Origin: Rhodopseudomonas infernalis
GTDB lineage: Bacteria > Pseudomonadota > Alphaproteobacteria > Rhizobiales > Xanthobacteraceae
NCBI RefSeq assembly: GCF_022271405.1
Contig: NZ_JAJNAL010000016.1
Location: 1-64,000, forward strand
Direction of reading: 5' to 3'
Length of the DNA: 64,000 bases
A program made the position numbers and the translations under genes. Positions 9,160 to 63,967 of the stretch are shown here, in pieces (position 1 is the first letter of the stretch; each line of letters begins with the position of its first letter). The notes under the pieces were generated by a model. The model was given only the letters and a program-made list of their open reading frames with translations. It searched no databases and was not told the origin of the DNA.

Positions 9160-10272
9160 TCAGTTCTTCAGGTTGATCATCCGCTCGACGGAGCGGCGGG
9201 CCGGCGCGATGATGGCGGGATCGACCGTCACTTCCTCGCGCAGGTACACGAGGCTGTCGAGAATCTTCGCCAGCGTGATCCGCTTCATGTGCGGGCACAG
9301 GTTGCACGGCCGCACCATCTCGACGTCGGGCAGCTCGGCCTGGACATTGTCGGCCATCGAGCACTCGGTGATCATCACCACGCGCTTGGGGTGCCGGGTC
9401 TTGACCCAGTTGATCATATGCGCGGTCGAGCCGGTGAAATCGGCTTCGGCCAGCACGTCGGGCGGGCATTCCGGATGCGCGATGATCTTCACGCTCGGAT
9501 CGGCCTCGCGATAGACGCGCAGCTCGTCGCCGGTGAAGCGCTCGTGCACTTCGCAGGCGCCCTTCCAGGCGATGATCTTGACCTTGGTCTGCGACGCCAC
9601 GTAGCGCGCCAGATATTGATCCGGCACCATGATGACGCGATCGGCTCCGAGGCTCTCCACCACCTGCACGGCGTTCGACGAGGTGCAGCAGATATCGACC
9701 TCCGCCTTCACGTCGGCGGACGTGTTGACGTAGGCCACCACCGGCACGCCGGGGAATTTTTCGCGCAGCAGCCGGATGTCGGCGCCGGTGATGCTGGAGG
9801 CCAGCGAGCAGCCGGCGCGCGAATCCGGGATCAGCACGCGCTTCTCCGGGCTGAGGATCTTCGAGGTCTCGGCCATGAAGTGCACGCCGCACTGGATGAT
9901 GGTCGAGGCCTTCACCTTGGTGGCCTCGATCGCCAGCTGCAGCGAGTCGCCAACGATGTCGGAGACGCAGTGGAAGATCTCCGGCGTCTGATAGTTGTGC
10001 GCCAGGATGACGGCGTCGCGCTCGCGCTTGAGCTCGTTGATCGCCTTGACGTAGGGCGCCATGAACGGCCACTCGACCGGCGGGATGACGTTCTGCACGC
10101 GCGCGTAGAGCTGCGCGGTCGCAGCCTCGACCTCGGGAGTCCAGTCCAGCGGCGGCATCGGCAGCGCGCGCGCTTTCTCGGACGGGGTTGGCGCAATGCG
10201 GGGGAGTGGAGCCTCGCGGCCGTGTGCCGGCTGGCCGAAATTCTCCGGCCCAAACAATTCAGCAAGCGGCAT
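9160..10272 (-). CDS. nadA: Quinolinate synthase A
   Basis: 4Fe-4S enzyme condensing iminoaspartate with dihydroxyacetone phosphate to quinolinate. The three cluster cysteines can be placed by motif: C128 (CGVHFMAET), C240 (ACEVHERF) and C326 (CNLCPHMK). HNYQ near residue 92 is the substrate-binding segment. At 370 residues, with an N-terminal extension of about 60, it fits the longer NadA forms. The start is supported by AGGAGG about 5 bases upstream. It is the first gene of the nad operon, and the 315 bp before it hold two operator-like palindromes. Confidence 0.96.
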
Positions 10273-50787: not shown

Positions 50788-51261
50788 TTACTTCAGCCGC
50801 TCGAGCAGCGCCAGAAATTGCGCCCGTTCGTCTTTCGCCAGCGGCGACAGAGTTTCTTTGGTGACCTCGTGGGCGATCGGGATCGATCGCTCGGTCAGGG
50901 CCTTGCCTTCCGGCGTCAACGATACGACCAGGCGGCGGCCGTCTTCCGGATCGGAGCCGGTCTCGACCAGCCCGCGCTTCACCAGTCGCTCCACCACGCC
51001 CTTGATGGTCGCTGCGTCCATCGCGGTGGCGCGGCCGAGCAGATTTTGCGAGCACGGGCCTTTCTCGAACAGCTTCGCCAGCGCCGCCCATTGGGTCATC
51101 GTCAGATCTTCGCCCATGCGGCTGACGAAAATCGTCGCATGACGCTGCAGCACCTGGCGCAGCGTGAAGCCGACCTGTGCGTCCAGCAGATAGGACGTTG
51201 CGCTTTTGGCCTTGCGGCGCGGCTTGTCCAACACTTTGCTCTTACCCGAACCTGAAGCCAA
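50788..51261 (-). CDS. MarR-family regulator (candidate regulator of nicotinate genes)
   Basis: 157 residues. Winged helix at about 60-125: MTQWAALAKLFEKGPCSQN, DAATIKGVVERLVKRG and the wing SDPEDGRRLVV. It ends the operon that starts with 6-hydroxynicotinate reductase (6 bp after livF). Nicotinate clusters in Pseudomonas and Bordetella are controlled by MarR proteins (NicR, BpsR), so this protein is the natural candidate. It probably binds the region between 59595 and 59900. Confidence 0.85.
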   Translation of the reverse strand: MASGSGKSKVLDKPRRKAKSATSYLLDAQVGFTLRQVLQRHATIFVSRMGEDLTMTQWAALAKLFEKGPCSQNLLGRATAMDAATIKGVVERLVKRGLVETGSDPEDGRRLVVSLTPEGKALTERSIPIAHEVTKETLSPLAKDERAQFLALLERLK

Positions 51262-51267
51262 TTTGCG

Positions 51268-51972
51268 TCACACCGCCAAATAAGCGTCGCGAATTTCCGG
51301 ATGCGCCTCGAGTTCGTCGATGGTGCCGGAAAAACGAATCCGCCCCTTCTCGATGATATAGGCGCGGTCGCAGATCAGCTTGGCGAAATGCAGATTCTGC
51401 TCCGAGATGATGATGCCCAGCCCCTCGCGCTTCATCGCCAAAATGGCGTCGGCCATCTGCTCGACGATCTTCGGCGCGAGCCCTTCGGACGGCTCGTCGA
51501 GCAGCACCAGCGACGGGTTGCCCATCAGCGTGCGGCCGATGCTGAGCATCTGCTGCTCGCCGCCGCTCATGTCGCCGCCGAGCCGCTTGCGCATCTCGCC
51601 GAGATTGGGAAACAGCTTGTAGATCCGCTCAGGCGTCCATTCGGCGACGCCGGGGCGTGGCTTCTGCTTGCCGACCTCGAAGTTCTCCTCGACCGTCAGC
51701 TCGGTGAAGATGCGCCGGTCTTCCGGCACGTAGCCGAGGCCGCGGCGCACGATTTCGTAGGACGGCAGCCGCGAGATGTCCTCGCCTTCGAACGTCACCT
51801 TGCCGCTGCGCCGCTGCACCAGCCCGACCACCGAGCGGAAGCTGGTGCTTTTGCCGGCGCCGTTGCGGCCCAGCATCGCAACGACTTCACCTTCGCCGAC
51901 CGCGAAGCCGACGTCGAACAGGATATGCGCCGGGCCGTAGTGACTGTTGAGGTCGGAGACTTCGAGCTTCAT
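51268..51972 (-). CDS. livF: Liv-type ABC transporter ATP-binding protein (LivF) of nicotinate cluster
   Basis: 234 residues. Walker A GRNGAGKST, signature MSGGEQQMLSIGRTL and Walker B LVLLDEPSEGL. Overlaps livG by 4 bp. Confidence 0.93.
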   Translation of the reverse strand: MKLEVSDLNSHYGPAHILFDVGFAVGEGEVVAMLGRNGAGKSTSFRSVVGLVQRRSGKVTFEGEDISRLPSYEIVRRGLGYVPEDRRIFTELTVEENFEVGKQKPRPGVAEWTPERIYKLFPNLGEMRKRLGGDMSGGEQQMLSIGRTLMGNPSLVLLDEPSEGLAPKIVEQMADAILAMKREGLGIIISEQNLHFAKLICDRAYIIEKGRIRFSGTIDELEAHPEIRDAYLAV

Positions 51973-52751
51973 GACAGCGCCTCCGCGCGGTGCTTGGCAT
52001 CGTAGAGCAGGCCGTCGCCGAGATAGATCGCCTGCACCTGCCGGTCCTGGCGGACCTGCTGCGGAGTGCCGCGCGCGATCAGCTGTCCGCGGTTCAGCAC
52101 CATCACCTCGTCGGCGTGTTCAAACACCACGTCCATGTCGTGCTCGGTGAACAGCACGCCGATGTTCTTGGCCCGCGCAATGCCGGCGGTGAGCCGCATC
52201 AGCTCGACGCGCTCCTTCGGCGCCATGCCGGCGGTCGGCTCGTCCATCAGCAGCAGCCGCGGCTGGTTGGCGAGCGCGATCGCCAGTTCGAGCCGCTTGA
52301 GGTCGCCATAAGCCAGCTCGCCGCACGGCCGCTCGACCTGTTCGCTCATGCCGACCAGCGCCAGCAATTCATCGGCCTCGGCCCGGTGCCGCGCGCCGGC
52401 GTAGCCGATCATGGACCACAGCCGGTGATGAAACGACAGCAGCGCCACCTGCACGTTCTCGCGCACCGTCATCGACGCGAAGGTCGCGGTGATCTGGAAG
52501 GTACGGCCGACGCCGCGTCGCCACACCGTGCGCGGCGGCAGCCCGACCACTTCCTCACCCGCAAGCCTGATCGAGCCGGCATCGGGAGGGATCTGGCCAT
52601 TGAGCATGTTGAAGCACGTGCTCTTGCCTGCGCCGTTCGGGCCGATCAGCGCCAGGATCTCGCCGGCGTTGACAGTAAAACTGACGTCGCGCACCGCGTG
52701 GACGCCCGCATAGGACTTCACCAGCCCTTTGACATCGAGCAGCACGGTCAT
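51969..52751 (-). CDS. livG: Liv-type ABC transporter ATP-binding protein (LivG) of nicotinate cluster
   Basis: 260 residues from ATG 52751. Walker A GPNGAGKST, VGRTFQITATFASMTV, signature-like LAYGDLKRLELAIAL (degenerate, as in many LivG) and Walker B LLLMDEPTAGM. Longer frames to 54167 are the fused permease in another phase. Overlaps livHM by 4 bp. Confidence 0.93.
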   Translation of the reverse strand: MTVLLDVKGLVKSYAGVHAVRDVSFTVNAGEILALIGPNGAGKSTCFNMLNGQIPPDAGSIRLAGEEVVGLPPRTVWRRGVGRTFQITATFASMTVRENVQVALLSFHHRLWSMIGYAGARHRAEADELLALVGMSEQVERPCGELAYGDLKRLELAIALANQPRLLLMDEPTAGMAPKERVELMRLTAGIARAKNIGVLFTEHDMDVVFEHADEVMVLNRGQLIARGTPQQVRQDRQVQAIYLGDGLLYDAKHRAEALS

Positions 52752-54640
52752 TCCGCAGCCTCCATCTTGGCGACGGCCAGCGCATCGGGCTTGCCGTTCT
52801 TCGGCCTCGGCCCGCGGTGGCGCCAATCGTCGATGAAGCCGACGATGCCCTTCGGCGCAGCGACGACGAGCAGCACGATGATCGCGCCGAGCACCAGCTT
52901 GGACCAGTCGGTCTGGCTCATCAGCCAGATCGCCAGCGCCTTGTAGACGATGGCGCCGATCACCGCGCCCGACACCGTCTCGATGCCGCCGAGTAGCACC
53001 ATCACCAGGCCGTCGACCGAGATGGGGATGGCCAGCGATTCCGGAAACACCGAGCCCTTGAGGAAAGCGAACAGCGCGCCGGCGACGCCCGCGAAGGTGC
53101 CGGCGACGATCAGCGCGACCCACTGCGTGGACTTGCGGTCGATGCCGATCGCGTCGGCACGCAGCGTGTTGTCGCGCGTGGCGCGCAGGCCGAAGCCGTA
53201 AGGCGAGAACACCAGCATGCGCAGCAGCGCAACGCCGACGACCGCGACGCCGAGCGTCAGCCAGAAGAAGCCTTGCGGGCTCGACGCCCAGGCCGACGGC
53301 CAGATGCCGAGGATGCCGTTGTCGCCGCCGGTGACTTCGACCCACTGGAACGCCACCGACCAGATGATCTGCGCGAACGCCAGCGTCAGCATCGCGAAGT
53401 ACACGCCCGACAGCCGCACGCAGAACCAGCCGGCCACGACCGCGCCGAGCAGCCCGAACACCGGCCCGACCAACAATGCCAGCTCCATCGGTGCGCCGAG
53501 GAATTTCACCGCGAACGCCGCACCATAAGCGCCGAGGCCGAAATAGGCGGCGTGGCCGAACGAGGCGAGACCGCCGACCGTCATCATGAAATGCAGGCTG
53601 GCGGCGAACAGCACGAACACCAGGATCTCGGCGCCGACGCTGAGCAGATAGTTGCCGGCGAACAGCGGCAGCAGCGCCGCGATCACGATCACCGCCGCGA
53701 CGCCGGCGCGCTCCAGCATCGACATCGGCTTCCACGGCCGGAACGAGATGCCGGTGCTGGAGCGGACGCCGCGCTCCGCCTTGCCGAGCAACCCATAGGG
53801 CCGCACTACGAGCACCACCGCCATCACCAGGAACACCGCGATCAGCGAGATTTTCGGCAGCACCAAAATGCCGAGCGCGTTGAGCTCGGACACCAGCACC
53901 GCCGCGATGAACGCGCCGGTGACCGAGCCGAGCCCGCCGATCACCACCACGACGAACACCTCGACGATGATCGACAGGTCCATGTAGTGCGTCACCGTGG
54001 TGCGCGGGATCTGCAGCGCGCCGCCGAGTGCGGCGAGGAACACGCCGAGCGCGAACACGCTGGTAAACAGCCATTTCTGATTGACGCCGAGGCAGGCGAC
54101 CATGTCGCGGTCCTGCGTCGCGGCGCGCACCAGCACGCCCCAGCGGGTGCGGTGGAATAGCAGCCACAAAGCGCCGAGCACCGCCGGGCCGAGCAAGATC
54201 AGCAGCAGATCGTAGGTCGGCACCAGCCGGCCGAACAGGCTGAAGGCGCCGGTGAAGCCGGGGGCGCGCGGGCCCATCAGATCGTCGGCGCCCCAGATCA
54301 GCACCACGAGATCCTGCACCATCAGCGTCACGCCGAAGGTGGCGAGCAGCTGGAATAGCTCCGGCGCCTGATAGATCCGGCGCAGCAGCACCATCTCCAT
54401 CAGCGCGCCGAGCACCGCGACGATCAGGCTCGCCACCAGCAGGCCGCCCCAGAACCCGAGTGGGCCGCTGAAGCGGTCGGTCAGGGTGAACGCCATATAG
54501 GCGCCCAGCATGTAGAACGCGCCGTGCGCGAAGTTCACGATACGGGTGACGCCGAAGATGATCGACAGCCCCGACGCCACCAGGAACAGCGACGCCGCGC
54601 TGGCGAGACCACTGAGAGCCTGGACCAAGATCAGTTCCAC
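52748..54640 (-). CDS. Fused LivH-LivM permease
   Basis: 630 residues, the sum of two permeases. Residues 1 to about 290 are LivH-like (SGLSIIFGVTRIVNFAHGAF), about 305 to 600 are LivM-like (GLASFGHAAYFGLGAYGAAF), with a basic Pro/Lys-containing linker around 300 and a charged C-terminal tail. The other Liv cluster in this window keeps livH and livM as separate genes, so the fusion is specific to this system. Translation is coupled to livG. Confidence 0.9.
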   Translation of the reverse strand: MELILVQALSGLASAASLFLVASGLSIIFGVTRIVNFAHGAFYMLGAYMAFTLTDRFSGPLGFWGGLLVASLIVAVLGALMEMVLLRRIYQAPELFQLLATFGVTLMVQDLVVLIWGADDLMGPRAPGFTGAFSLFGRLVPTYDLLLILLGPAVLGALWLLFHRTRWGVLVRAATQDRDMVACLGVNQKWLFTSVFALGVFLAALGGALQIPRTTVTHYMDLSIIVEVFVVVVIGGLGSVTGAFIAAVLVSELNALGILVLPKISLIAVFLVMAVVLVVRPYGLLGKAERGVRSSTGISFRPWKPMSMLERAGVAAVIVIAALLPLFAGNYLLSVGAEILVFVLFAASLHFMMTVGGLASFGHAAYFGLGAYGAAFAVKFLGAPMELALLVGPVFGLLGAVVAGWFCVRLSGVYFAMLTLAFAQIIWSVAFQWVEVTGGDNGILGIWPSAWASSPQGFFWLTLGVAVVGVALLRMLVFSPYGFGLRATRDNTLRADAIGIDRKSTQWVALIVAGTFAGVAGALFAFLKGSVFPESLAIPISVDGLVMVLLGGIETVSGAVIGAIVYKALAIWLMSQTDWSKLVLGAIIVLLVVAAPKGIVGFIDDWRHRGPRPKNGKPDALAVAKMEAAE

Positions 54641-54732: not shown

Positions 54733-55929
54733 TCAGTTCGCCGGACGAAGCTTGGCGGCTTCGGCCTCGGGCGGCAGATAGTCCGCGCCCTTCTTGAACT
54801 TGATGTCGGTCATGATGCCTTTGCCGTCCTTCTGGGTGGTCTTGCCGACGAAGGCGCCCATCGTCGACTGATGATCACCGGCGCGGTACACGACAGGACC
54901 GAACGGGGTGTCGACCTTGAGGTTCTTCATTGCCTTCATCAGGCTCTCGGTCGACGTATCGTCGGCGGCGGTCAGCACCGCGGCGATGCTTTTGACGGTC
55001 GAATAGCCGACCACCGAGCCGAGCCGCGGATAGTCCTTGTTCGCCGCCTGATAGGCATCGAGGAAGGCTTTGTGCTCCGGGGTGTCGATCGCGTACCAGG
55101 GATAGCCGGTGACGATCCAGCCTTCCGGCGTCTCGGTCTTCAGCGGATCGAGATATTCCGGCTCGCCCGTGAGGTAGGACACCACGACGCGGTCTTTGAA
55201 CACGCCGCGGGTATTGCCCTCACGCACCAGCTTCACCAGGTCGCCGGCGAAGGTGGCGTTGAGGATCGCGTCGGGCTTGGCAGCGTCGATCGCCTGCAGC
55301 ACCGGGCCGGCGTCGATCTTGTTCAGCGGCGGCCACTGCTCGGCGACGAATTCGACGTCGGGCCGCTTCTTGCTGAGGATTTCCTTGAAGGCGGCGACGA
55401 AGGACTGGCCGAATTCATAGTTCGGCGCGATCGTCGCCCACTTCTTGGCCGGCAGCTTGGCGGCTTCCTCCGCCAGCATCGAGGCCTGCATGTAGTTCGA
55501 GGTGCGCAGCCGGTAGGTGTAGTCGTTGCCCTTCGACCAGACGATCGCGTCGGTCAGCGGCTCGGCGGCGATGTACAGCACCTTCTTCTGCTTGGCAAAA
55601 TCCGACAGCGCCAGGCCGATATTGGAGAGGAAGCCGCCGGCGATCATCACTACGCCGTCGCGCGACACGAGTTCGTTGGCGGCGGTCAGCGCGTCGCCCG
55701 GCTTGCCGCCGTCGTCCTTGGTGATGACGACCAGCTTCTTGCCCTTGATGCCGCCGGCATCGTTGATCTGCTTGAGCGCCAGCTCCATGCCCTTGCGATA
55801 CGGCTCGGTGAAGCCGGGCAAAGCGGAGTAGGAGTTGATCTCGCCCACCTTGATTTCGCCCTGCTGGGCGTGCGCCGCTCCGGACGCCAACAACAATGCG
55901 GCCAGTGCCAGTCGTGCTACCTGCTTCAT
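54733..55929 (-). CDS. livK: Liv-type substrate-binding protein of nicotinate cluster
   Basis: 398 residues. Signal peptide (KQVARLALAALLLASGAAHA), then IKVGEINSYSALPGFTEPYR and the two-lobe periplasmic type I fold. It lies between the permease and the AA_synth genes in the operon led by 6-hydroxynicotinate reductase, so nicotinate or a hydroxylated pyridine carboxylate is the likely ligand (inference; many Liv-type proteins bind aromatic acids). Confidence 0.88.
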   Translation of the reverse strand: MKQVARLALAALLLASGAAHAQQGEIKVGEINSYSALPGFTEPYRKGMELALKQINDAGGIKGKKLVVITKDDGGKPGDALTAANELVSRDGVVMIAGGFLSNIGLALSDFAKQKKVLYIAAEPLTDAIVWSKGNDYTYRLRTSNYMQASMLAEEAAKLPAKKWATIAPNYEFGQSFVAAFKEILSKKRPDVEFVAEQWPPLNKIDAGPVLQAIDAAKPDAILNATFAGDLVKLVREGNTRGVFKDRVVVSYLTGEPEYLDPLKTETPEGWIVTGYPWYAIDTPEHKAFLDAYQAANKDYPRLGSVVGYSTVKSIAAVLTAADDTSTESLMKAMKNLKVDTPFGPVVYRAGDHQSTMGAFVGKTTQKDGKGIMTDIKFKKGADYLPPEAEAAKLRPAN

Positions 55930-56023: not shown

Positions 56024-56608
56024 TCAGCGTAGCCCATCCTCACCCTTGATTTCGGCGGTGGTCAAACCGCCGACCCGTGGCAGCGGGCGGCCGGAATCGG
56101 TCACCGCCACCGCCACCACGATTTCGCCCGCGCGCGGCGCATCGCCGACGCTCACCTGCATGCCGTCGAAATGGCTGCGCACGAAGGCGGCGTCCTTGTG
56201 GCCGAGCGGAATGTCGAGTTCGGCGCCGAGGCCGCCGCGACGTTTCGACGACGGGATCAGCGCCGCGCCCTTGCCCAGCACCTTGCGCACCGGCGCGCCC
56301 ATCTTGGGATGCAGCAGCGCGGCGGCGTGTTCGAGTTCGCCGTTCTCACCGACCAGCGCGGCCTTGCCGTAGCTCTCGGCCTTGCTGCCCTCGATGCCGA
56401 GCGCCGCCACGGCCTTCTCGGTCAGCAGCCCGCCGAGCTCCTCGCCGATCGCGATCAGCTCGGACAGATCCTCGACATAGCGACCGGCGAACGGATTTTC
56501 GATCACCGCGATCGCCGCGGCGCGGCGGGTGGCCGGGGCGACCGGCCGGCCCATCTCGGTCAGCGTTTCTTCGACGACGACAACGATCTTGCGGATTTTT
56601 GCGCTCAT
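56024..56608 (-). CDS. AA_synth (PF06684) family protein, copy B
   Basis: 194 residues. Shares with copy A at 56605-57189 the block AVIENPFAGRY (about 35), the YGKAALVGENGELEHAAAL stretch and the C-terminal AEIKGEDGLR. The family is called amino acid synthesis protein on structural grounds only; its reaction is unproven. Position between the reductase and the transporter makes a ring-opening or deamination role in nicotinate breakdown possible. Overlaps copy A by 4 bp. Confidence 0.85.
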   Translation of the reverse strand: MSAKIRKIVVVVEETLTEMGRPVAPATRRAAAIAVIENPFAGRYVEDLSELIAIGEELGGLLTEKAVAALGIEGSKAESYGKAALVGENGELEHAAALLHPKMGAPVRKVLGKGAALIPSSKRRGGLGAELDIPLGHKDAAFVRSHFDGMQVSVGDAPRAGEIVVAVAVTDSGRPLPRVGGLTTAEIKGEDGLR

Positions 56609-57189
56609 CGCAGACCGTCCTCGCCCTTGATGTCCGCCGCTGCGAGTCCGCCGACGCGGGCGTGCACGCGCGGGCCGCTGCTCATCACCAGCACCAGTGC
56701 GATTTCATTGGCCTTGGGGGCGTCGGTGACGCCGACTTCCATCGCGTCGAAATGGCTGCGCACGTAGGAGGCGTTGACGTGGGTGATCGGCACGTCGAGC
56801 CGCGTGCCCGGGCCGCCGACCTTCTTGGTCGACGGCACGATGGCCTTGGCGTCGCCGAGGATCTCGCGCATCGCGTAGCCGCCGGGCACGTGCCACAGCG
56901 CGCCGTGCTCGAGCTCACCATTGGCGCCGACGATCGCGCCCTTGCCGTAGCCGTCGATCGCCTTGGCGTCGCCGCCGAGCGCCTGCAGCAGCTCGCCCGC
57001 CAGCGCGACGCCGAGCGGCGTGAGGTCGTCCATGAAGCCTGAGATCTCCGGCACGTAGCGGCCGGCGAACGGGTTCTCGATCACCGCGATGATCGCGCCG
57101 CGCCGCCGCGGCGTCGCCGCCACCGGGCCACCTTCGTGGAAGACTTCCTCGGTGATCAGCACTTTCTTCCGGACTTTGACCTCAGGCAT
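56605..57189 (-). CDS. AA_synth (PF06684) family protein, copy A
   Basis: 194 residues from ATG 57189; the upstream ~17 residues of the longer frame overlap the UPF0280 gene. Same blocks as copy B: AVIENPFAGRYVPEI, YGKGAIVGANGELEHGAL, SYVRSHFDAMEV and AADIKGEDGLR. Both copies keep the Glu-Asn and His residues in the shared blocks, so neither looks dead; they may form a heteromer. Confidence 0.85.
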   Translation of the reverse strand: MPEVKVRKKVLITEEVFHEGGPVAATPRRRGAIIAVIENPFAGRYVPEISGFMDDLTPLGVALAGELLQALGGDAKAIDGYGKGAIVGANGELEHGALWHVPGGYAMREILGDAKAIVPSTKKVGGPGTRLDVPITHVNASYVRSHFDAMEVGVTDAPKANEIALVLVMSSGPRVHARVGGLAAADIKGEDGLR

Positions 57190-58096
57190 TGGTTCGCTCT
57201 TGTTGTGGGTGCGAGGAAAGGAAGGCGGCATCGCCGACACTGACGGTTTCGCCCTGCAAATGCAGCGCCGCGGCGCAGATCAATCCACGCGACATCAGGT
57301 CGCGCGCGACCGCAAGGCCGGCAGACAGCGACTGTGCGCGCTCGGCGTCGGATAGCATCGGGACCTCGCGCGTGACGCGGCGATCGCCGAGATCGTTGTC
57401 GGGCTGGATGTCGCAAGCTCGCCGGCGGATCACGCCGCGATGATCCGGTAGGTCGACGGCGTTGGCAACAACGGTCGCGGCCGCATCCGCCATCGCGGCG
57501 GTCGGCGCCAGAATCGTCACCGCGTCGGCGATGCCGAGCGAGAAGCTGCGCCCGCGCCAGCCGCTGGTGGCGACGCCGCGCACCGGACTGTCTGCAGTGA
57601 TTGCGGCCGAGCCGATCAGCCGCGGCTGGTCGGGGCGGTCGACCAGTCCGACCGTGTAGCTCGCGCCCTGCGCCAGATGCAGCGCGATATCGCCGCCATT
57701 GTTGACGTAGGCGCGGGTGATGCCGGGGCAGAGCAGCGCCTTCAGTATCTCATCCGCCACCGCGCCTGCGACCGCCGCCATCGGCGTGATGAACATCGGA
57801 TCGGCGAACGGCGCCACCGCCGCGGCCATGCGCTGCGCGACTGGATGAACCAGCGTCGGCGCGTTGCCGCCAGCCGGCGCACGCAGCGCCGAGAGTTCGG
57901 CGCACAGCGCGTCGAGCAGCCCGGTGAAGCGTCGCACCGCGGCGTCATAAGCGTAGCGCACGGCTTCGGCCTCGCCGGTCGCCTCGATGATCAGGTCGAT
58001 CGGGCCGTCCTGGAGATGCAAACGGCGGCCATCGGCCAGCAGCGCCGCCTGGATGGGCCGTCCTCGAACCGGCGAGATGGGTTGCGGGGCGGCCAT
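57182..58096 (-). CDS. UPF0280 (ApbE-like) family protein
   Basis: 304 residues from ATG 58096. Glycine-rich block AYVNNGGDIALHLAQG (about 165), GVATSGWRGRSFSLGIAD and a DAAATVVANAV helix, as in UPF0280 proteins with the ApbE flavin-transferase fold. Function is unknown. Its stop overlaps the start of AA_synth copy A by 8 bp, and it follows the reductase by 4 bp. A role in flavin handling or in the pathway itself is possible. Confidence 0.82.
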   Translation of the reverse strand: MAAPQPISPVRGRPIQAALLADGRRLHLQDGPIDLIIEATGEAEAVRYAYDAAVRRFTGLLDALCAELSALRAPAGGNAPTLVHPVAQRMAAAVAPFADPMFITPMAAVAGAVADEILKALLCPGITRAYVNNGGDIALHLAQGASYTVGLVDRPDQPRLIGSAAITADSPVRGVATSGWRGRSFSLGIADAVTILAPTAAMADAAATVVANAVDLPDHRGVIRRRACDIQPDNDLGDRRVTREVPMLSDAERAQSLSAGLAVARDLMSRGLICAAALHLQGETVSVGDAAFLSSHPQQERTNA

Positions 58097-58100
58097 GCGA

Positions 58101-59594
58101 TCAGCCGAAGTAACGTTTGACGGAGTTGGGCGCGAGCGGCCACGGATTGTCGGCATGCGGCGCGACCGGGCGGCGGCCGTCGTCGAGCGTGATCGACGAC
58201 ACCGGGCGAACCTCCGCCATGTGGCCGCCGAGTTCCTGATAGTCCGATAGCCGCAGCGTGAATTCGATCGGCGCCACCAGCGCCGGCGTCGGCACATAGC
58301 CGAAGGCGTTCTCCGGCATCTTGGTGACGTCCACCATGATGGTGATGCCGCCGCCGGGATAGACATAGACCGGTGCGCCGCCGCAGGTCACATAAGTCAG
58401 CGCGTCCTTCACCGAGTTGGTCAGGCGGACCGGATTCTCCGTCACACCGGCTCGCAGCGAGCCGCCGGCGCCAGCCATGAACAGCACGGTCGACAGCGCC
58501 GGCTCGCAATTGTCCTTGACCCGCTGCGACAGCGCGGCGAGTTCCGCCGGCATTTCCTTTTCACGCGGCGTCAGCTCGTCGTCGAGTTCGAAGTAAGCGG
58601 CATGTTCGCCGGTGGTGGAGATGAAATACAGCCGCAGCCCGGGCCAGGCGACCTTGCGATCGAACGGGCCGAGGATCGACAGCGGATCGGAGATATTGGT
58701 GCCGCCCCAGCCGGTGCCCGGCTCGGCGACCTGGAAGTAACGACCCGGCGTCGAGCGCCGCCCCTTGATCTTGATGCCGGTGTCGGCAATGCCCAGAACC
58801 TTGCCGGCCTGATGTTCGGATAACACGCCGGTAATGTGATCGTCGACCACGACGACGTCATCGACCAGGCCGAGCCACTGCTTGGCGAACATGCCGATCG
58901 TCGCCGAGCCGCAGCCGACGCGCATGCGCTCTTCCTTGATGCCGTTGACGATCGGCGCCTGGCCGGCCTGCACCATCACGGTCGAGCCGCCGTCGATCGT
59001 CAGCTCGACCGGCTTGCCGTTGCACAGATCGAGCAGCGCTTCGCAGGTGATGCGGCCTTCCTTCTTGCTGCCGCCGGTGAGGTGATGCACGCCGCCGAGC
59101 GACAGCATCTGTGAGCCGTATTCCGATGTCGTGACGTGGCCGACTGCTTCGCCGCCGGCGCGCACCGTCGCCTGTTCGGGGCCGAGGAAGCGGTCGGTGT
59201 CGATCTTCACTTTGACGCCGCAGTAACTGAAAATGCCCTCGGTGACGACCGTCACCATGTCGACGCCGTTGACTTCGGACGACACGATGAACGGCGCGGG
59301 CTTGTAGTCCGGATAGGTGGTGCCGGCGCCGATCGCGGTGACGAAGGTGTCGGGCGACGCAATCAGCTTGCCGTCCCACGAGCCATCGCGATGGAACGGC
59401 ACTACCGCGGCGCCATGCGCCAGCGCGCGGTCGAGCACGACATGCGGATCGACGCGGACCAGCTCGCCGTTGTCGTTGGCGTAGCGGTCGCAGGCGCCGC
59501 TGGCGCCGGGCTTGATGTAGCACATCACCGGACACGCATCGCAGCGGATCTTGTCGTCGCTCGGCGTCTGCGCCTCGGGAATGCTGTCACTCAT
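58101..59594 (-). CDS. hnr: 6-hydroxynicotinate reductase
   Basis: 497 residues. Reduces 6-hydroxynicotinate to 1,4,5,6-tetrahydro-6-oxonicotinate, the second step of reductive nicotinate breakdown known from Eubacterium barkeri and proposed in Azorhizobium. N-terminal cysteines C18, C21, C25 and C35 fit an Fe-S cluster; EGIFSYCGVKVKIDTDRFLG and YVTCGGAPVYVYPGG are further conserved-looking blocks. The family match is from recall of annotation, not a search. First gene of the minus-strand operon, divergent from nicA. Confidence 0.8.
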   Translation of the reverse strand: MSDSIPEAQTPSDDKIRCDACPVMCYIKPGASGACDRYANDNGELVRVDPHVVLDRALAHGAAVVPFHRDGSWDGKLIASPDTFVTAIGAGTTYPDYKPAPFIVSSEVNGVDMVTVVTEGIFSYCGVKVKIDTDRFLGPEQATVRAGGEAVGHVTTSEYGSQMLSLGGVHHLTGGSKKEGRITCEALLDLCNGKPVELTIDGGSTVMVQAGQAPIVNGIKEERMRVGCGSATIGMFAKQWLGLVDDVVVVDDHITGVLSEHQAGKVLGIADTGIKIKGRRSTPGRYFQVAEPGTGWGGTNISDPLSILGPFDRKVAWPGLRLYFISTTGEHAAYFELDDELTPREKEMPAELAALSQRVKDNCEPALSTVLFMAGAGGSLRAGVTENPVRLTNSVKDALTYVTCGGAPVYVYPGGGITIMVDVTKMPENAFGYVPTPALVAPIEFTLRLSDYQELGGHMAEVRPVSSITLDDGRRPVAPHADNPWPLAPNSVKRYFG

Positions 59595-59900
59595 GGGACT
59601 GCTGGCTCCAGGCCGTCGGCTCTTGGTGATCCGGCGCTGCCTTCATTTCATATGTATACTAATGAAAAGCGAGGGCTGCTTCGAAGTCAAGCATAAGGAA
59701 TGGGCAGCACATGCACAAACATTGTCGCAGCGCACACCATGCTTGACGAATTTCATTCGTGTAGAAACAATCATGGCATCAGTAGGCGAGACAGGCGGGA
59801 GCGCCGGAATGCCCTATAGTAGTCAGAGCGCGCCGTTGTTTGTTGCGATGCACGCTGATTGCCGTGCGCGTCACGACGTCCTGTTCGCGAGGCGGTGCCG
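59595..59900. promoter_or_regulatory. Divergent control region of the nicotinate genes
   Basis: 306 bp, A/T-richer than the flanking genes. Contains the inverted repeat TTTCAT-N10-ATGAAA at 59646-59667 (middle ATGTATACTA, itself partly palindromic around GTATAC), 52 bp upstream of the hnr start. A weaker, partly similar stretch starts with TTTCATTCGTGTAG at 59752. Probably holds the promoters of hnr and nicA and the operator for the MarR regulator at 50788. Confidence 0.6.
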
Positions 59901-60401
59901 ATGAATTCGGGCGGCCCGGTGAGTCTCACGGTCAACGGAACCGAGCATTCCTTCGACCTGCCGCGCGACACCAAGCTGATCTATGTGCTGCGCAACGATC
60001 TCGGCCTCAACGGACCGAAGTTCGGTTGTGGCCTCGGCGAGTGCGGCGCCTGCACGGTGCTGATCGACGGCGTTCCGGCGCGGTCTTGCGTCGTGACGCT
60101 GAAGACCGCGGAGGGCCGATCCGTTACGACGCTCGAGGGGCTTGGGACACAGGATGCGCTGCACCCGGTGCAGGCGGCGTTCATCGAGGCGCAGGCGGCG
60201 CAATGCGGCTATTGCCTCAACGGCATGATCATGACGGCGACGGCGCTGCTCGCGCGTAACCCGACGCCGAGCATCGACGAAGTGCGCGAGGCGCTGCGCT
60301 ACAATCTGTGCCGCTGCGGCACGCATGTGGAAATCGTCCGCGCCGTGCTGGTCGCGGCGGGGGCTGCTACGGATGCCGCTGTGGCGCAGGCGGCCCTGTG
60401 A
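59901..60401 (+). CDS. nicA: Nicotinate dehydrogenase small 2Fe-2S subunit
   Basis: 166 residues from ATG 59901 (GAGGCGG upstream). Electron-transfer subunit of the molybdenum hydroxylase that converts nicotinate to 6-hydroxynicotinate. Two 2Fe-2S sets: C43, C48, C51, C63 (plant-ferredoxin type) and C102, C105, C137, C139. Length matches Pseudomonas putida NicA (157). Its stop overlaps the nicB start (TGATG). Confidence 0.9.
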   Translation: MNSGGPVSLTVNGTEHSFDLPRDTKLIYVLRNDLGLNGPKFGCGLGECGACTVLIDGVPARSCVVTLKTAEGRSVTTLEGLGTQDALHPVQAAFIEAQAAQCGYCLNGMIMTATALLARNPTPSIDEVREALRYNLCRCGTHVEIVRAVLVAAGAATDAAVAQAAL

Positions 60402-63400
60402 TGAGTGAGCGCCCGATGACCGAGCCGACGCCCGACACCGCGGAGTTGCTGGCGGGTGCCGGCACGTTGGCGGTGCTGCGGCCCTCGCAACACGTCAAGG
60501 GATTAGTCCCGACCGAGCCGCCGCCCGAGGGCGCGCTCGATCTGTTTCTCTATCTCGACGCCGCCGGCCAGGTGTTGGCTTTCAGCGGCCATGTCGATCT
60601 CGGCACCGGCATCCGCACGGCCCTGGCGCAGATCGTCGCCGAAGAACTCGACGTGCCGTTTGGGTCCGTCACCATGGTGCTCGGCCACACCTCCGGCACG
60701 CCCAACCAGGGCGCCACCATCGCCAGCGACAGCATTCAGGTCAGTGCCGTGCCGCTGCGCAAGGCCGCGGCGCAGGCGCGGCATCATCTGGTGGCGCTCG
60801 CCGCGCAGGAGCTGGAGCTTGCGGCCGACCAACTCACCGTTACCGACGGCATCGTGCATCCGCGCGATGCGTCCAATCGTGGCGTGTCCTACGCGTCGCT
60901 GCTGCAAGGCCGCAGCGAGCGGTTGATGCTGGCGGACGATGTCGCGGTCAAGCCGGTGAGCGAGCATCGCATCGTCGGCCACCGCGTCGCGCGCTCGGAT
61001 ATTCCGGCGAAGGCGACCGGCGACTTCGTCTATGTGCACGACGTCCGCGTGCCCGGCATGCTGCATGGCCGCGTCGTGCGGCCGCCTTATGCGGGCATCG
61101 ACGCCGGCGACTTCATCGGCAACAGCCTGCTCGGCGTCAACGAAGCCTCGATCGCGCATATTCCCGGCGTGGTCGCGGTCGTCACGATGGGGGATTTCGT
61201 CGGTGTGGTTGCCGAGCGCGAGGAGCAGGCTGCCGAGGCCGCGCGCGTCCTTGACGTCAAGTGGAAGCCACCGCCACCGCTGCCGAAGCTCGACGATCTC
61301 GCCACCGCGCTACGCGCCAATCCCGCGACGACGCGCACGCTGCTCGACAAGGGCGATGTCGAGGCCGCGCGTAGTTCCGCGACCGTGCCGATGGATCGCA
61401 CCTACGTCTGGCCGTATCAGATGCACGGCTCGATCGGGCCGTCCTGTGGCGTCGCCGATGTAAGTGATGGTTTTGCGCGGATCTGGTCGGGCACGCAGAA
61501 CCCGTATCCGCTGCGGCTGGATATTTCGATCCTGCTCGGCATTCCGGAGGCAGATGTCGAGATCCTGCGCTTCGAAGCCGCCGGCTGCTATGGCCGTAAC
61601 TGTGCCGACGATGTCTGCGCCGACGCCGCGCTGCTGTCCCGCGCGGTCGGGCGGCCGGTGCGCGTGCAGCTGACGCGCGAGCAGGAGCATGCCTGGGAGC
61701 CGAAGGGCGCCGCGCAACTGATGGAAATTTCCGGCGGCCTGACCGCCGACGGCAGCCCGGCCGCCTATGACTTCGCCACACGCTATCCATCCAACGCCGC
61801 CGTGACGCTGGCGCTACTTCTCACGGGGCGGGTGCCGGCGAACAATCCGGTGTTCGAGATGGGCGATCGCACCGCGATCCCGCCTTACGCCTACGATAAC
61901 ATCCGCGTGCGCGTGCACGACATGGCGCCGATCGTCCGCGCGGCCTGGCTCCGCGGCGTCTCGGCGCTGCCGAATTCATTCGCGCATGAAAGCTACATCG
62001 ATGAGTTGGCGGCTGCGGCCGGTGTCGATCCGCTGGACTATCGGCTGCGCTATCTGCACGATCCGCGCGCCGTCGATCTGGTCAAGGAAGTCGCCGCGCG
62101 AGCTAACTGGGCGCACCGCACCGGACCGCGCCGCGAGATCGTCGAAGGCGACGTCGTGCGCGGGCAGGGGCTCGCCTACGCGCTCTACGTCCACTCCAAG
62201 TTTCCCGGCTACGGCGCCGCTTGGTCGGCCTGGGTCGCCGATGTCGAAGTGAATACCAGGACCGGCGACGTCGCGGTGAAGCGCGTCGTGGTCGGTCAGG
62301 ATTCCGGACTGATGATCAACCCGGCCGGGATCGAGCATCAGATCCACGGCAACGTCATCCAGTCGACCAGCCGCGCGCTGAAGGAGAGCGTCAGCTTCAC
62401 CGACACTGCGGTCGCCGACAAGGAGTGGGGCGCGTACCCGATCATCACCTTCCCCGAGGTGCCGGTGATCGACGTCGTGCTGATGCCGCGGCCGAACGAT
62501 CCGCCGCTCGGCAGCGGCGAGTCGGCCTCGGTGCCCTCCGCGGCGGCGATCGCCAACGCGATTTTTGACGCCACTGGGGTGCGGCTGCGCGAGCCGCCGT
62601 TCACGCCGGACCGCGTCCGCGCTGCCTTAGGTTTGCCTCAACCCCCGCAGCCCGTTCCGCCGCCGGTAAAGAAGCGCTCTTGGTTCGCAATGGCGGGCGC
62701 CGCCTTGGTCGGTGCGCTCGGCATGGCGGCGATCGCGCTGCCGATCCGCGGCGCCATCGCCCCGATCGCGCCGCCCGATCCGTCGACGTTCTCGTCCGAC
62801 ATGATCGCGCGCGGCCGACAACTCGCCGCGCTCGGCGGCTGCGCGACCTGTCACACCGTGCCCGGCGGGATTACAAATGCCGGCGGCCGCGCGATGGAAA
62901 CGCCGTTCGGCACCGTGTACGCAACCAATCTGACGCCCGATCCCGAGACCGGCATCGGCCATTGGTCTTACGCGGCGTTCGAGCGGGCGATGCGCGAGGG
63001 CATCGCCCGCGACGGCAGCCACCTCTATCCGGCGTTTCCCTACGCGTCGTTCACCCGCAGCAGCGACACCGATTTGCAGGCGCTGTACGCTTTTCTGATG
63101 TCGCAGGCGCCGGTGAAGGTCGCGACGCCCGCGGCTAAGTTGTCGTTTCCATTCAATATTCGCCCGCTGATGGCGGGTTGGAACTTGCTGTTTCTGCGGC
63201 CTGGACCGATGCAGGCCGATCCGGCCCGGCCCGCTCAATGGAATCGCGGCGCCTATCTGGTCGAGAGCCTCGGCCATTGCGGCGCCTGTCATACCCCGCG
63301 CAACGCGCTCGGTGCCGAGAAGGCCAAGACCGACTATCTGGCCGGCGGCGCCGTCGATGGCTGGCACGCGCCGGCGCTCACGGCCCTTTCGCGCGCACCG

Positions 63401-63967
63401 ATCCCGTGGACCGAAGCCGAGCTGTTCGCCTATCTGCGCAGCGGCTTCTCGCGCTTTCACGGCACCGCGGCGGGCCCGATGGCAGCGGTGGTCGAGCAAC
63501 TCGCACCGCTGCCCGATGCAGATATCCGCGCGATGGCGACCTATCTGGCGTCGTTTGCGCCGACGGCCGAGCCCGACCCGGTGCAACGTGCCGCGGCGCT
63601 GCAGACCGAGGCAGCGTCCGCGCTGCGCCCGCTGGATACGCTGGGCGGCCGGCTCTACGAAGGCGCCTGTGCGTCCTGCCACGCCGAAACCGGCCCGACG
63701 CTGTTCGGCGTCCGCCCGGCGCTGGCGCTCAACACGAATGTCCACGCAATGGAACCGGACAATCTGATTAGGGTCATTCTAGACGGAATACCTAGTCCCG
63801 CAGCTGCCGAACTGGGCGATATGCCCGGGTTCCGCCACAGTTTCGACGATAACCAGATCGCGGCGCTGGTCACTTATCTGCGCGCCTCCTTCGCTCCGCA
63901 GGCGCCCGCCTGGGGCGGCGTTGAACAAGCGGTGTCGCGCCTGCGCGCCCACCAAGGCTCTCACTGA
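60401..63967 (+). CDS. nicB: Nicotinate dehydrogenase large subunit with three cytochrome c domains
   Basis: 1188 residues, the size of P. putida NicB (1187). Residues 1 to ~745 form the molybdopterin cytosine dinucleotide-binding domain of aldehyde/xanthine dehydrogenase type (GHVDLGTGIRTALAQIVAEE, then PLGSGESASVPSAAAIANA). A hydrophobic segment near 762-785 probably anchors it to the membrane. Three heme c sites follow: C814-C817-H818, C960-C963-H964, C1090-C1093-H1094. Electrons therefore leave to the respiratory chain rather than NAD, as in P. putida. Starts inside the nicA stop; the stop is at 63965-63967. Confidence 0.92.
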   Translation: MSERPMTEPTPDTAELLAGAGTLAVLRPSQHVKGLVPTEPPPEGALDLFLYLDAAGQVLAFSGHVDLGTGIRTALAQIVAEELDVPFGSVTMVLGHTSGTPNQGATIASDSIQVSAVPLRKAAAQARHHLVALAAQELELAADQLTVTDGIVHPRDASNRGVSYASLLQGRSERLMLADDVAVKPVSEHRIVGHRVARSDIPAKATGDFVYVHDVRVPGMLHGRVVRPPYAGIDAGDFIGNSLLGVNEASIAHIPGVVAVVTMGDFVGVVAEREEQAAEAARVLDVKWKPPPPLPKLDDLATALRANPATTRTLLDKGDVEAARSSATVPMDRTYVWPYQMHGSIGPSCGVADVSDGFARIWSGTQNPYPLRLDISILLGIPEADVEILRFEAAGCYGRNCADDVCADAALLSRAVGRPVRVQLTREQEHAWEPKGAAQLMEISGGLTADGSPAAYDFATRYPSNAAVTLALLLTGRVPANNPVFEMGDRTAIPPYAYDNIRVRVHDMAPIVRAAWLRGVSALPNSFAHESYIDELAAAAGVDPLDYRLRYLHDPRAVDLVKEVAARANWAHRTGPRREIVEGDVVRGQGLAYALYVHSKFPGYGAAWSAWVADVEVNTRTGDVAVKRVVVGQDSGLMINPAGIEHQIHGNVIQSTSRALKESVSFTDTAVADKEWGAYPIITFPEVPVIDVVLMPRPNDPPLGSGESASVPSAAAIANAIFDATGVRLREPPFTPDRVRAALGLPQPPQPVPPPVKKRSWFAMAGAALVGALGMAAIALPIRGAIAPIAPPDPSTFSSDMIARGRQLAALGGCATCHTVPGGITNAGGRAMETPFGTVYATNLTPDPETGIGHWSYAAFERAMREGIARDGSHLYPAFPYASFTRSSDTDLQALYAFLMSQAPVKVATPAAKLSFPFNIRPLMAGWNLLFLRPGPMQADPARPAQWNRGAYLVESLGHCGACHTPRNALGAEKAKTDYLAGGAVDGWHAPALTALSRAPIPWTEAELFAYLRSGFSRFHGTAAGPMAAVVEQLAPLPDADIRAMATYLASFAPTAEPDPVQRAAALQTEAASALRPLDTLGGRLYEGACASCHAETGPTLFGVRPALALNTNVHAMEPDNLIRVILDGIPSPAAAELGDMPGFRHSFDDNQIAALVTYLRASFAPQAPAWGGVEQAVSRLRAHQGSH

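Follow-up and report, generated by a model that had tools for sequence, protein, structure and literature searches.

Tandem AA_synth (PF06684) genes in a nicotinate cluster of Rhodopseudomonas infernalis: association with pyridine-carboxylate breakdown and a tentative decarboxylation

What do two adjacent genes of the AA_synth family (PF06684) do in a gene cluster for nicotinate breakdown? The question is raised by a stretch of 64,000 nucleotides (nt) from Rhodopseudomonas infernalis (contig NZ_JAJNAL010000016.1, positions 1 to 64,000; hereafter the window), in which both genes lie on the minus strand, copy A at 56024-56608 and copy B at 56605-57189. Each encodes a protein of 194 amino acids that covers the PF06684 profile from 1 to 175 of 175, with scores of 244 bits for A and 235.9 bits for B against a cut-off of 27 bits, and the two open reading frames share bases 56605-56608. 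The listed frame of B opens with a GTG at 57240; we took the ATG at 57189, which fits its relatives. The proteins are 49% identical, and the blocks ENPFAGRY, GENGELEH/GANGELEH and IKGEDGLR that the original prediction, made from the DNA letters alone, had picked out are all present, as is the 4-bp overlap. The pair had also been placed between the reductase and the transporter. The transporter does lie downstream, but a UPF0280/ApbE-like gene (57182-58096, minus strand) separates the pair from the gene for a 6-hydroxynicotinate reductase-like protein (Hnr; 58101-59594, minus strand), so named by orthology to public genes.

The two crystal structures of PF06684 (formerly DUF1185), those of SPO0826 (2qtp) and BB2672 (3byq), date from 2010, and A and B belong to the same family over their full length. 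The best PDB sequence match of A is 2qtp (E 7e-84) and that of B is 3byq (E 2.5e-59). The family name rests on a guess at amino-acid synthesis: the accessible text of PMC2954203 proposes amino-acid metabolism from the fold and the gene neighbours, whereas most neighbours found here belong to pyridine-carboxylate catabolism. As predicted, the literature searched (largely without subscription papers) gave no reaction for PF06684, nor did it name the family in a nicotinate cluster. Our answer has two parts of unequal strength. The association of PF06684 with nicotinate and trigonelline catabolism is well supported. As to the reaction, A and B may act just after ring opening by decarboxylating 2-formylglutarate to glutarate semialdehyde, an assignment by analogy to which we give a probability of roughly 0.38.

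Linkage of AA_synth to nicotinate and trigonelline loci

Co-occurrence was counted in two genome sets, 61 genomes near that of the window and 398 drawn from its phylum; some genomes, the window's own among them, belong to both. In the smaller set PF06684 is present in all 19 genomes with Hnr and in 5 of the 42 without it. In the larger set, after a weak Hnr match was dropped (G084, E 9.8e-4), it is present in 31 of 32 genomes with a strong Hnr match and in 28 of the 366 others. Fisher tests, which ignore relatedness, gave p 1.4e-11 and 1.1e-28 for the two sets, and by hand count PF06684 is present in 15 of the 16 genera that have a strong Hnr match. The original prediction had put the two proteins forward as candidate enzymes of nicotinate breakdown, to be abandoned if no co-occurrence with nicotinate genes emerged across genomes; that outcome did not occur, and the counts bear the candidacy out.

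Over both sets there are 50 distinct Hnr genomes. At the Hnr locus itself, 20 of them carry A and B, 11 A only, 17 B only and 2 neither, the last being G197, which has no PF06684 gene at all, and G040, which has two distant members elsewhere. Two of the 17 B-only genomes (G181 and G252) hold another B+A pair beside the enamidase gene and away from Hnr, leaving 15. Sixteen Hnr genomes possess just one PF06684 gene overall. It is A in G020, G031, G169, G345 and G393, thus in 5 of the 11 A-only genomes, and B in G046, G055, G110, G130, G225, G229, G389, G076, G335, G391 and G425, thus in 11 of the 15 B-only genomes. The other six A-only genomes have an extra match elsewhere, five of them coumarin-type members of the B clade described below and one a fragment (G217). 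These patterns suggest that either paralogue alone can suffice, in which case the two would be interchangeable in function. In the loci concerned in G181 and G252 (L108 and L110), B+A stands by the enamidase gene while the Hnr cluster has its own B, and the module can thus be split.

A second large PF06684 context consists of a GntR regulator, AA_synth, an alpha/beta hydrolase, a flavin reductase, a luciferase-like monooxygenase and an aldehyde dehydrogenase, with some of these genes missing from some loci. Genes of the same kinds appear in two annotated records from rhizobia. We take this make-up to be that of the trigonelline (tgn) cluster. The trigonelline-type luciferase occurs in 22 of the 398 genomes, and all 22 have PF06684; in G117, G344 and G368 the luciferase and PF06684 genes are 14-18 kb apart. 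Hnr or this luciferase is found in 52 of the 398 genomes, with PF06684 in 51 of these 52 and in 8 of the 346 others, and 51 of the 59 PF06684 genomes carry one or the other. Smaller contexts combine AA_synth with an FAA hydrolase, a zinc alcohol dehydrogenase and a glyoxalase, with a GMC oxidoreductase, or with an aldehyde dehydrogenase alone.

Gene order, tree rows and two models were taken from 80 named loci among the matches listed for query A, a biased sample made up mostly of Bradyrhizobium. The tree, built with IQ-TREE from 116 PF06684 members, has an unsettled bootstrap (0.987) and is drawn with a midpoint root; its context labels are our own (17 loci of trigonelline type, 6 related loci with an aldehyde dehydrogenase and a hydrolase, and 9 rows labelled 'other'). 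A falls in a clade of 30 rows (support 100/98) and B in one of 43 rows (100/100). Because these are separate, strong clades, A and B look like old paralogues of one enzyme family and not like a recent tandem copy. The PF06684 members of trigonelline-type loci form a group apart from both A and B (100/100); this group is taken to stand for TgnF of Acinetobacter baylyi ADP1, the TgnF sequence itself not being among the rows. Another known member is HcdD from the 7-hydroxycoumarin operon of Pseudomonas mandelii 7HK4, described in the available portion of PMC7913881 as homologous to TgnF and induced with its pathway. The HcdD route differs in having no ring nitrogen and no formyl dicarboxylate, and the loci with an FAA hydrolase, a zinc alcohol dehydrogenase and a glyoxalase, which resemble its operon, nest inside the B clade.

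On an Arthrobacter dokdonellae plasmid (L233), a cluster of trigonelline type holds two AA_synth genes in tandem, both with only a weak likeness to A (105 and 131 bits), together with a tautomerase family protein and, nearby, a succinate-semialdehyde dehydrogenase. Tandem AA_synth pairs may have more than one origin.

Hydrolases of the ring-opening step

An orthologue of enamidase, an amidohydrolase, is encoded at contig positions 65060-66256, about 1 kb past the end of the window; it matches the Eubacterium barkeri enamidase 2vun over query residues 12-394 (E 4e-108), a likeness of homology only. Across genomes we called a match an enamidase orthologue above 500 bits, the first scoring having taken the four best candidates per genome. 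Orthologues were found in 15 genomes of the first set and 18 of the second, 32 distinct genomes in all, every one of which has Hnr and A; the match in G397 has an in-frame TGA. Among the 33 Hnr genomes with A, G443 alone is without an enamidase match, and an orthologue is absent from all 17 Hnr genomes that lack A. Enamidase-like genes of a second kind occur in G040 (298.6 bits) and G056 (285.6 bits).

Several Hnr genomes with no enamidase orthologue have genes for HyuA and HyuB (hydantoinase/oxoprolinase) instead, which were sought in the flanks of Hnr, over 6 kb for G110, G114, G255 and G332. HyuA and/or HyuB lie within about 14 kb of Hnr in 8 of the 15 B-only genomes (G046, G055, G056, G389, G225, G335, G076 and G229; only one of the two genes in G225 and G229), and also near Hnr in G443 and G040. 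Neither was present within about 25 kb of Hnr in G130, G391 and G425, the contig of G391 ending sooner on one side. A Pleomorphomonas plasmid carries, in this order, genes for Hnr, a UPF0280-like protein, B, HyuA, HyuB and NicR; those for B and HyuA overlap by 4 bp, as do those for HyuA and HyuB. In the fetched loci, enamidase and HyuAB were never seen together at one Hnr locus. Judged from gene content, HyuAB likely replaces enamidase for lactam opening, a pointer to a second solution of this step, while AA_synth stays with either hydrolase. HyuA/HyuB pairs at Hnr loci without an enamidase gene are seen at L049, L050, L051, L059, L060 and L232.

The second kind of enamidase-like gene, whose best PDB match in the one case tested is again 2vun, has its own AA_synth partner: a third PF06684 clade (6 rows, 98/93) lies -4 to 62 bp from it in six loci, and 6 of 10 second-kind matches over both sets have a PF06684 neighbour. 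Outside Pseudomonadota, a Thermomicrobium roseum plasmid (L234) carries AA_synth with an enamidase-like amidohydrolase and a molybdopterin hydroxylase subunit, an arrangement that probably serves another N-heterocycle route.

Lactam opening by A or B themselves was considered and rejected, because an enamidase orthologue is present in the cluster and AA_synth has no invariant Ser. The idea arose from a likeness to AtzD that exists at fold level only, in a score band common to unrelated families.

A tentative decarboxylation and its alternatives

The substrate, reaction and mechanism that we infer are as follows. Hnr would make tetrahydro-6-oxonicotinate, and enamidase (HyuA/HyuB elsewhere) would open the lactam to give 2-formylglutarate. 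A hexameric AA_synth, of either paralogue alone, would then remove the beta-carboxylate of 2-formylglutarate as CO2, and the resulting glutarate semialdehyde would be oxidised to glutarate by a dehydrogenase encoded elsewhere. TgnF-type relatives would carry out the matching step on a formyl dicarboxylate, leading to succinate semialdehyde in trigonelline breakdown. In the 116-row alignment R6, K82, E93, H94, R108, E162 and R178 are constant in all rows with a letter at these positions, and E91 and R174 are nearly constant; Lys82 could form an imine with the aldehyde, and the invariant Arg residues could hold the carboxylates.

Trigonelline breakdown gives carbon dioxide, formate, methylamine and succinate semialdehyde, and a 2-formylsuccinate-like stage is therefore implied. 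Azorhizobium reportedly opens the reduced nicotinate ring, releases ammonia, decarboxylates the product and oxidises it to glutarate. We know of no gene for this decarboxylation after ring opening, a step that AA_synth may fill. Anaerobic clusters of the E. barkeri type reduce 2-formylglutarate instead. Glutarate as a product of the Azorhizobium route is stated second-hand in the accessible parts of the literature citing Kitts 1992, and 2-formylglutarate is given as the product of enamidase in the available text of PMC9304392. From the enamidase product and the trigonelline products it follows that the main contexts would share a 2-formyl dicarboxylate and an omega-semialdehyde.

What the data show directly is the gene linkage, the phyletic pattern, the occurrence of A or B singly in clusters that are alike in other respects, the set of invariant polar residues and the fold. 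The argument for decarboxylation proceeds by elimination and analogy. At enamidase-type Hnr loci the recurrent genes with a Pfam assignment belong to transport, regulation, hydroxylase, reductase, hydrolase and electron-transfer families, and no decarboxylase or aldehyde dehydrogenase is among them. The recurrent genes of known family that are left without a role are A, B and UPF0280, the last of which is likelier tied to Hnr. Decarboxylation is the step left without a gene and would fall to AA_synth. The retention of AA_synth while the lactam hydrolase switches between enamidase and HyuAB also counts in its favour, as do the co-occurrence counts, the occurrence of either paralogue alone in Hnr clusters, the presence of A in all 32 enamidase genomes, the AA_synth clade beside the second enamidase-like gene, the invariant residues and the stimulation of succinate semialdehyde oxidation reported for TgnF. 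We put decarboxylation first among the reactions, at less than even odds.

A number of observations weigh against it. Three further recurrent frames have no Pfam family, at least one of them antisense to an ATPase gene, and one enamidase-type locus, L069, carries a gene of the CMD family (nominally a decarboxylase). G197 has Hnr and no PF06684 gene; at this genome's Hnr locus (L062) there is no HyuAB within about 27 kb, and no enamidase scores over the threshold anywhere in the genome. The aldehyde dehydrogenase expected to follow is not recurrent in nicotinate loci (one at L194, another about 17 kb from the cluster in G076), the coumarin-type subgroup inside the B clade serves a route without a formyl dicarboxylate, and 2-formyl acids may lose CO2 spontaneously. 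Lys82 is a putative catalytic residue. No activity was found for any family member in the literature searched, and according to the accessible sections of PMC7913881 its authors tried HcdD and saw no effect. The same source states that TgnF stimulates the oxidation of succinate semialdehyde; decarboxylation would account for this only in an assay started with the product of the hydrolase, and otherwise the opening of a lactol, or activation, is the better explanation. Should TgnF act on succinate semialdehyde in pure form, the proposed reaction would be wrong. The wider proposal, that PF06684 is a new class of cofactor-free enzymes of the chorismate-mutase/YjgF fold group that process (for example, decarboxylate) 2-formyl dicarboxylates, as a late step common to nicotinate and trigonelline breakdown, and have spread with enamidase-, HyuAB- and trigonelline-type ring opening, is less likely than not.

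The reported stimulation of a semialdehyde dehydrogenase by TgnF, in what is available of PMC7913881, is the starting point of the best-surviving alternative: AA_synth would open the lactol or hydrate of the semialdehyde, or a lactone, and so make it usable by the dehydrogenase. Aldehyde dehydrogenase genes are common neighbours in trigonelline-type and some other loci, and a lactone-opening role would suit HcdD beside its dihydrocoumarin lactone. The scarcity of dehydrogenases in nicotinate loci speaks against this reading, as does the spontaneous hydrolysis of 7-hydroxydihydrocoumarin in buffer, and we consider it unlikely.

Structure bears on a further alternative, that AA_synth is a Rid-like hydrolase releasing ammonia and 2-formylglutarate from the enamine or imine (2-aminomethyleneglutarate) left by lactam cleavage. 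Copy A was predicted without templates, with a mean predicted local distance difference test (pLDDT) score of 90.4. In Foldseek its sole matches with E < 0.001 were 2qtp and 3byq (E 2.2e-21 and 8.6e-21), and with a closer aligner it superposed on them with Z 25.1 and 27.1. Rid proteins, chorismatase, chorismate mutases and cyclic amide hydrolases form the next tier (Z 5.1-6.6); AIR synthetase, selenophosphate synthetase, ThiL and FtsZ chains fall in this same band, however, and a score below Z 8 may, by the aligner's own account, reflect no more than a common arrangement. Profile comparison by hhalign with 28 Rid proteins, whose fold reaches Z 6.6, gave a probability of 0.1 against 0.2 for the reversed control. 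AtzD (Toblerone fold), held in the available text of PMC3758960 to derive from a YjgF-type trimer, shares the tier, and the two AtzD sequences compared gave no profile-level signal with AA_synth. Its Ser-Lys dyad is not evident in AA_synth, where K82 is constant but no Ser reaches 95% conservation in the 116 rows (the highest is S145, 89%). A Rid-like role would suit the linkage of AA_synth to hydrolases of three families, and HyuAB alone would leave an enamine to be dealt with. Yet all 32 enamidase genomes have A, and the E. barkeri enamidase is said to deaminate as well, according to the accessible part of PMC9304392. We regard a Rid-like hydrolase as slightly less probable than lactol or lactone opening.

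Close behind in probability, and likewise improbable, is a non-catalytic AA_synth that stabilises or activates enamidase, HyuAB or the dehydrogenase. In the accessible sections of PMC7913881, stimulation of another enzyme is the only effect ascribed to TgnF. The 4-bp overlap of AA_synth with HyuA in one annotated record and at L049 points the same way, as does its close spacing to the second enamidase-like gene in six loci. In the available portion of PMC2954203 two inter-subunit salt bridges are described, which we map to E91-R178 and E93-R174, as well as a histidine cluster near a large cavity, and several of the constant residues could thus serve an interface. These polar residues do not vary between members whose partners come from unrelated families, which suggests a conserved active site instead.

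Least probable by a wide gap is what the original prediction had read from the retention of the pair, an obligate heteromer or two sequential steps breaking down tetrahydro-6-oxonicotinate: the 4-bp overlap in 33 of the 42 loci with both genes (many of them close relatives) and the extra PF06684 matches in 6 of the 11 A-only genomes are in its favour, but neither an obligate heteromer nor two different obligatory steps fit the 28 of 50 Hnr genomes with A only or B only at Hnr, the enamidase orthologue in the cluster (HyuA/HyuB in other genomes) already covers ring opening and makes action on tetrahydro-6-oxonicotinate itself doubtful, and the crystallised members were both homo-hexamers in solution, as the accessible text of PMC2954203 has it. 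Where a genome has both copies, they may still form a heteromer.

The nicotinate cluster itself is already in print, and those of Azorhizobium, Bradyrhizobium, R. palustris HaA2 and strain SG-6C are the close known systems. New, as far as our searches show, are the split between A and B, the ability of either to stand alone, the exchange of enamidase and HyuAB, and the pyridine-carboxylate count. With these counts the long-open assignment of PF06684 becomes testable with one set of substrates (2-formylglutarate, glutarate semialdehyde and succinate semialdehyde) and strains with a single copy.

Neighbouring genes of the locus

In the order of transcription the minus-strand genes encode Hnr, the UPF0280/ApbE-like protein, B, A, a binding protein, a fused permease, two ATPases and a MarR regulator. 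A Sulfitobacter plasmid record shows the same order of a 6-hydroxynicotinate reductase, a UPF0280 family protein and two amino acid synthesis family proteins. Scans for promoters (2 matches against 0.7 expected) and terminators (5 against 3.3 expected) were not used.

Hnr scores 734 and 726 bits against the 6-hydroxynicotinate reductase genes of two annotated records, again homology only. Neither Pfam nor NCBIfam assigns it a family at E 0.001, a PDB search at E 0.1 gave no match, and its predicted structure is poor (mean pLDDT 65). An N-terminal Cys cluster (C18, C21, C25 and C35) is conserved; a simple flavin attachment pattern had no match. The UPF0280/ApbE-like protein scores 28.4 bits to ApbE and 412 bits to NF003322. 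Its start codon (~58096) was inferred from the reading frame, and the family scans used 57182-58075. A gene of this kind lies near Hnr in all 27 Hnr loci among L042-L071, and it is kept even at the two Hnr loci without AA_synth (L048 and L062). The Hnr of E. barkeri carries a covalent flavin, and flavin attachment is what ApbE proteins do; UPF0280 may, by analogy, be the flavin transferase for Hnr.

Downstream of A, the same strand encodes a branched-chain-amino-acid-type ATP-binding cassette (ABC) transporter, putatively for nicotinate uptake: a periplasmic binding protein (54733-55929; Peripla_BP_6, 239.8 bits), a fused permease (52748-54640; BPD_transp_2 in two stretches), an ATPase (51268-51972; ABC_tran) and a second ATPase-like frame, earlier in the operon and ending at 51969, which was read from the open-reading-frame listing. 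The MarR-family regulator follows at 50788-51261, also on the minus strand (MarR, 41.8 bits).

Divergent from this operon, the plus strand encodes a nicotinate hydroxylase-like pair, a 2Fe-2S subunit (59889-60401; Fer2_2 and Fer2), whose frame opens upstream at 59859 and whose start is provisional, and a molybdopterin subunit with cytochrome c domains (60398-63967; MoCoBD_1, MoCoBD_2, Cytochrom_C and Cytochrome_CBB3). The union of molybdopterin and cytochrome c domains in this one long frame fits a nicotinate hydroxylase feeding a cytochrome chain. A gene for an isochorismatase-family hydrolase also recurs near Hnr (L196 at 9204-9929, L043, L048, L058, L060, L067, L068 and L071) and possibly encodes a nicotinamidase feeding the route.

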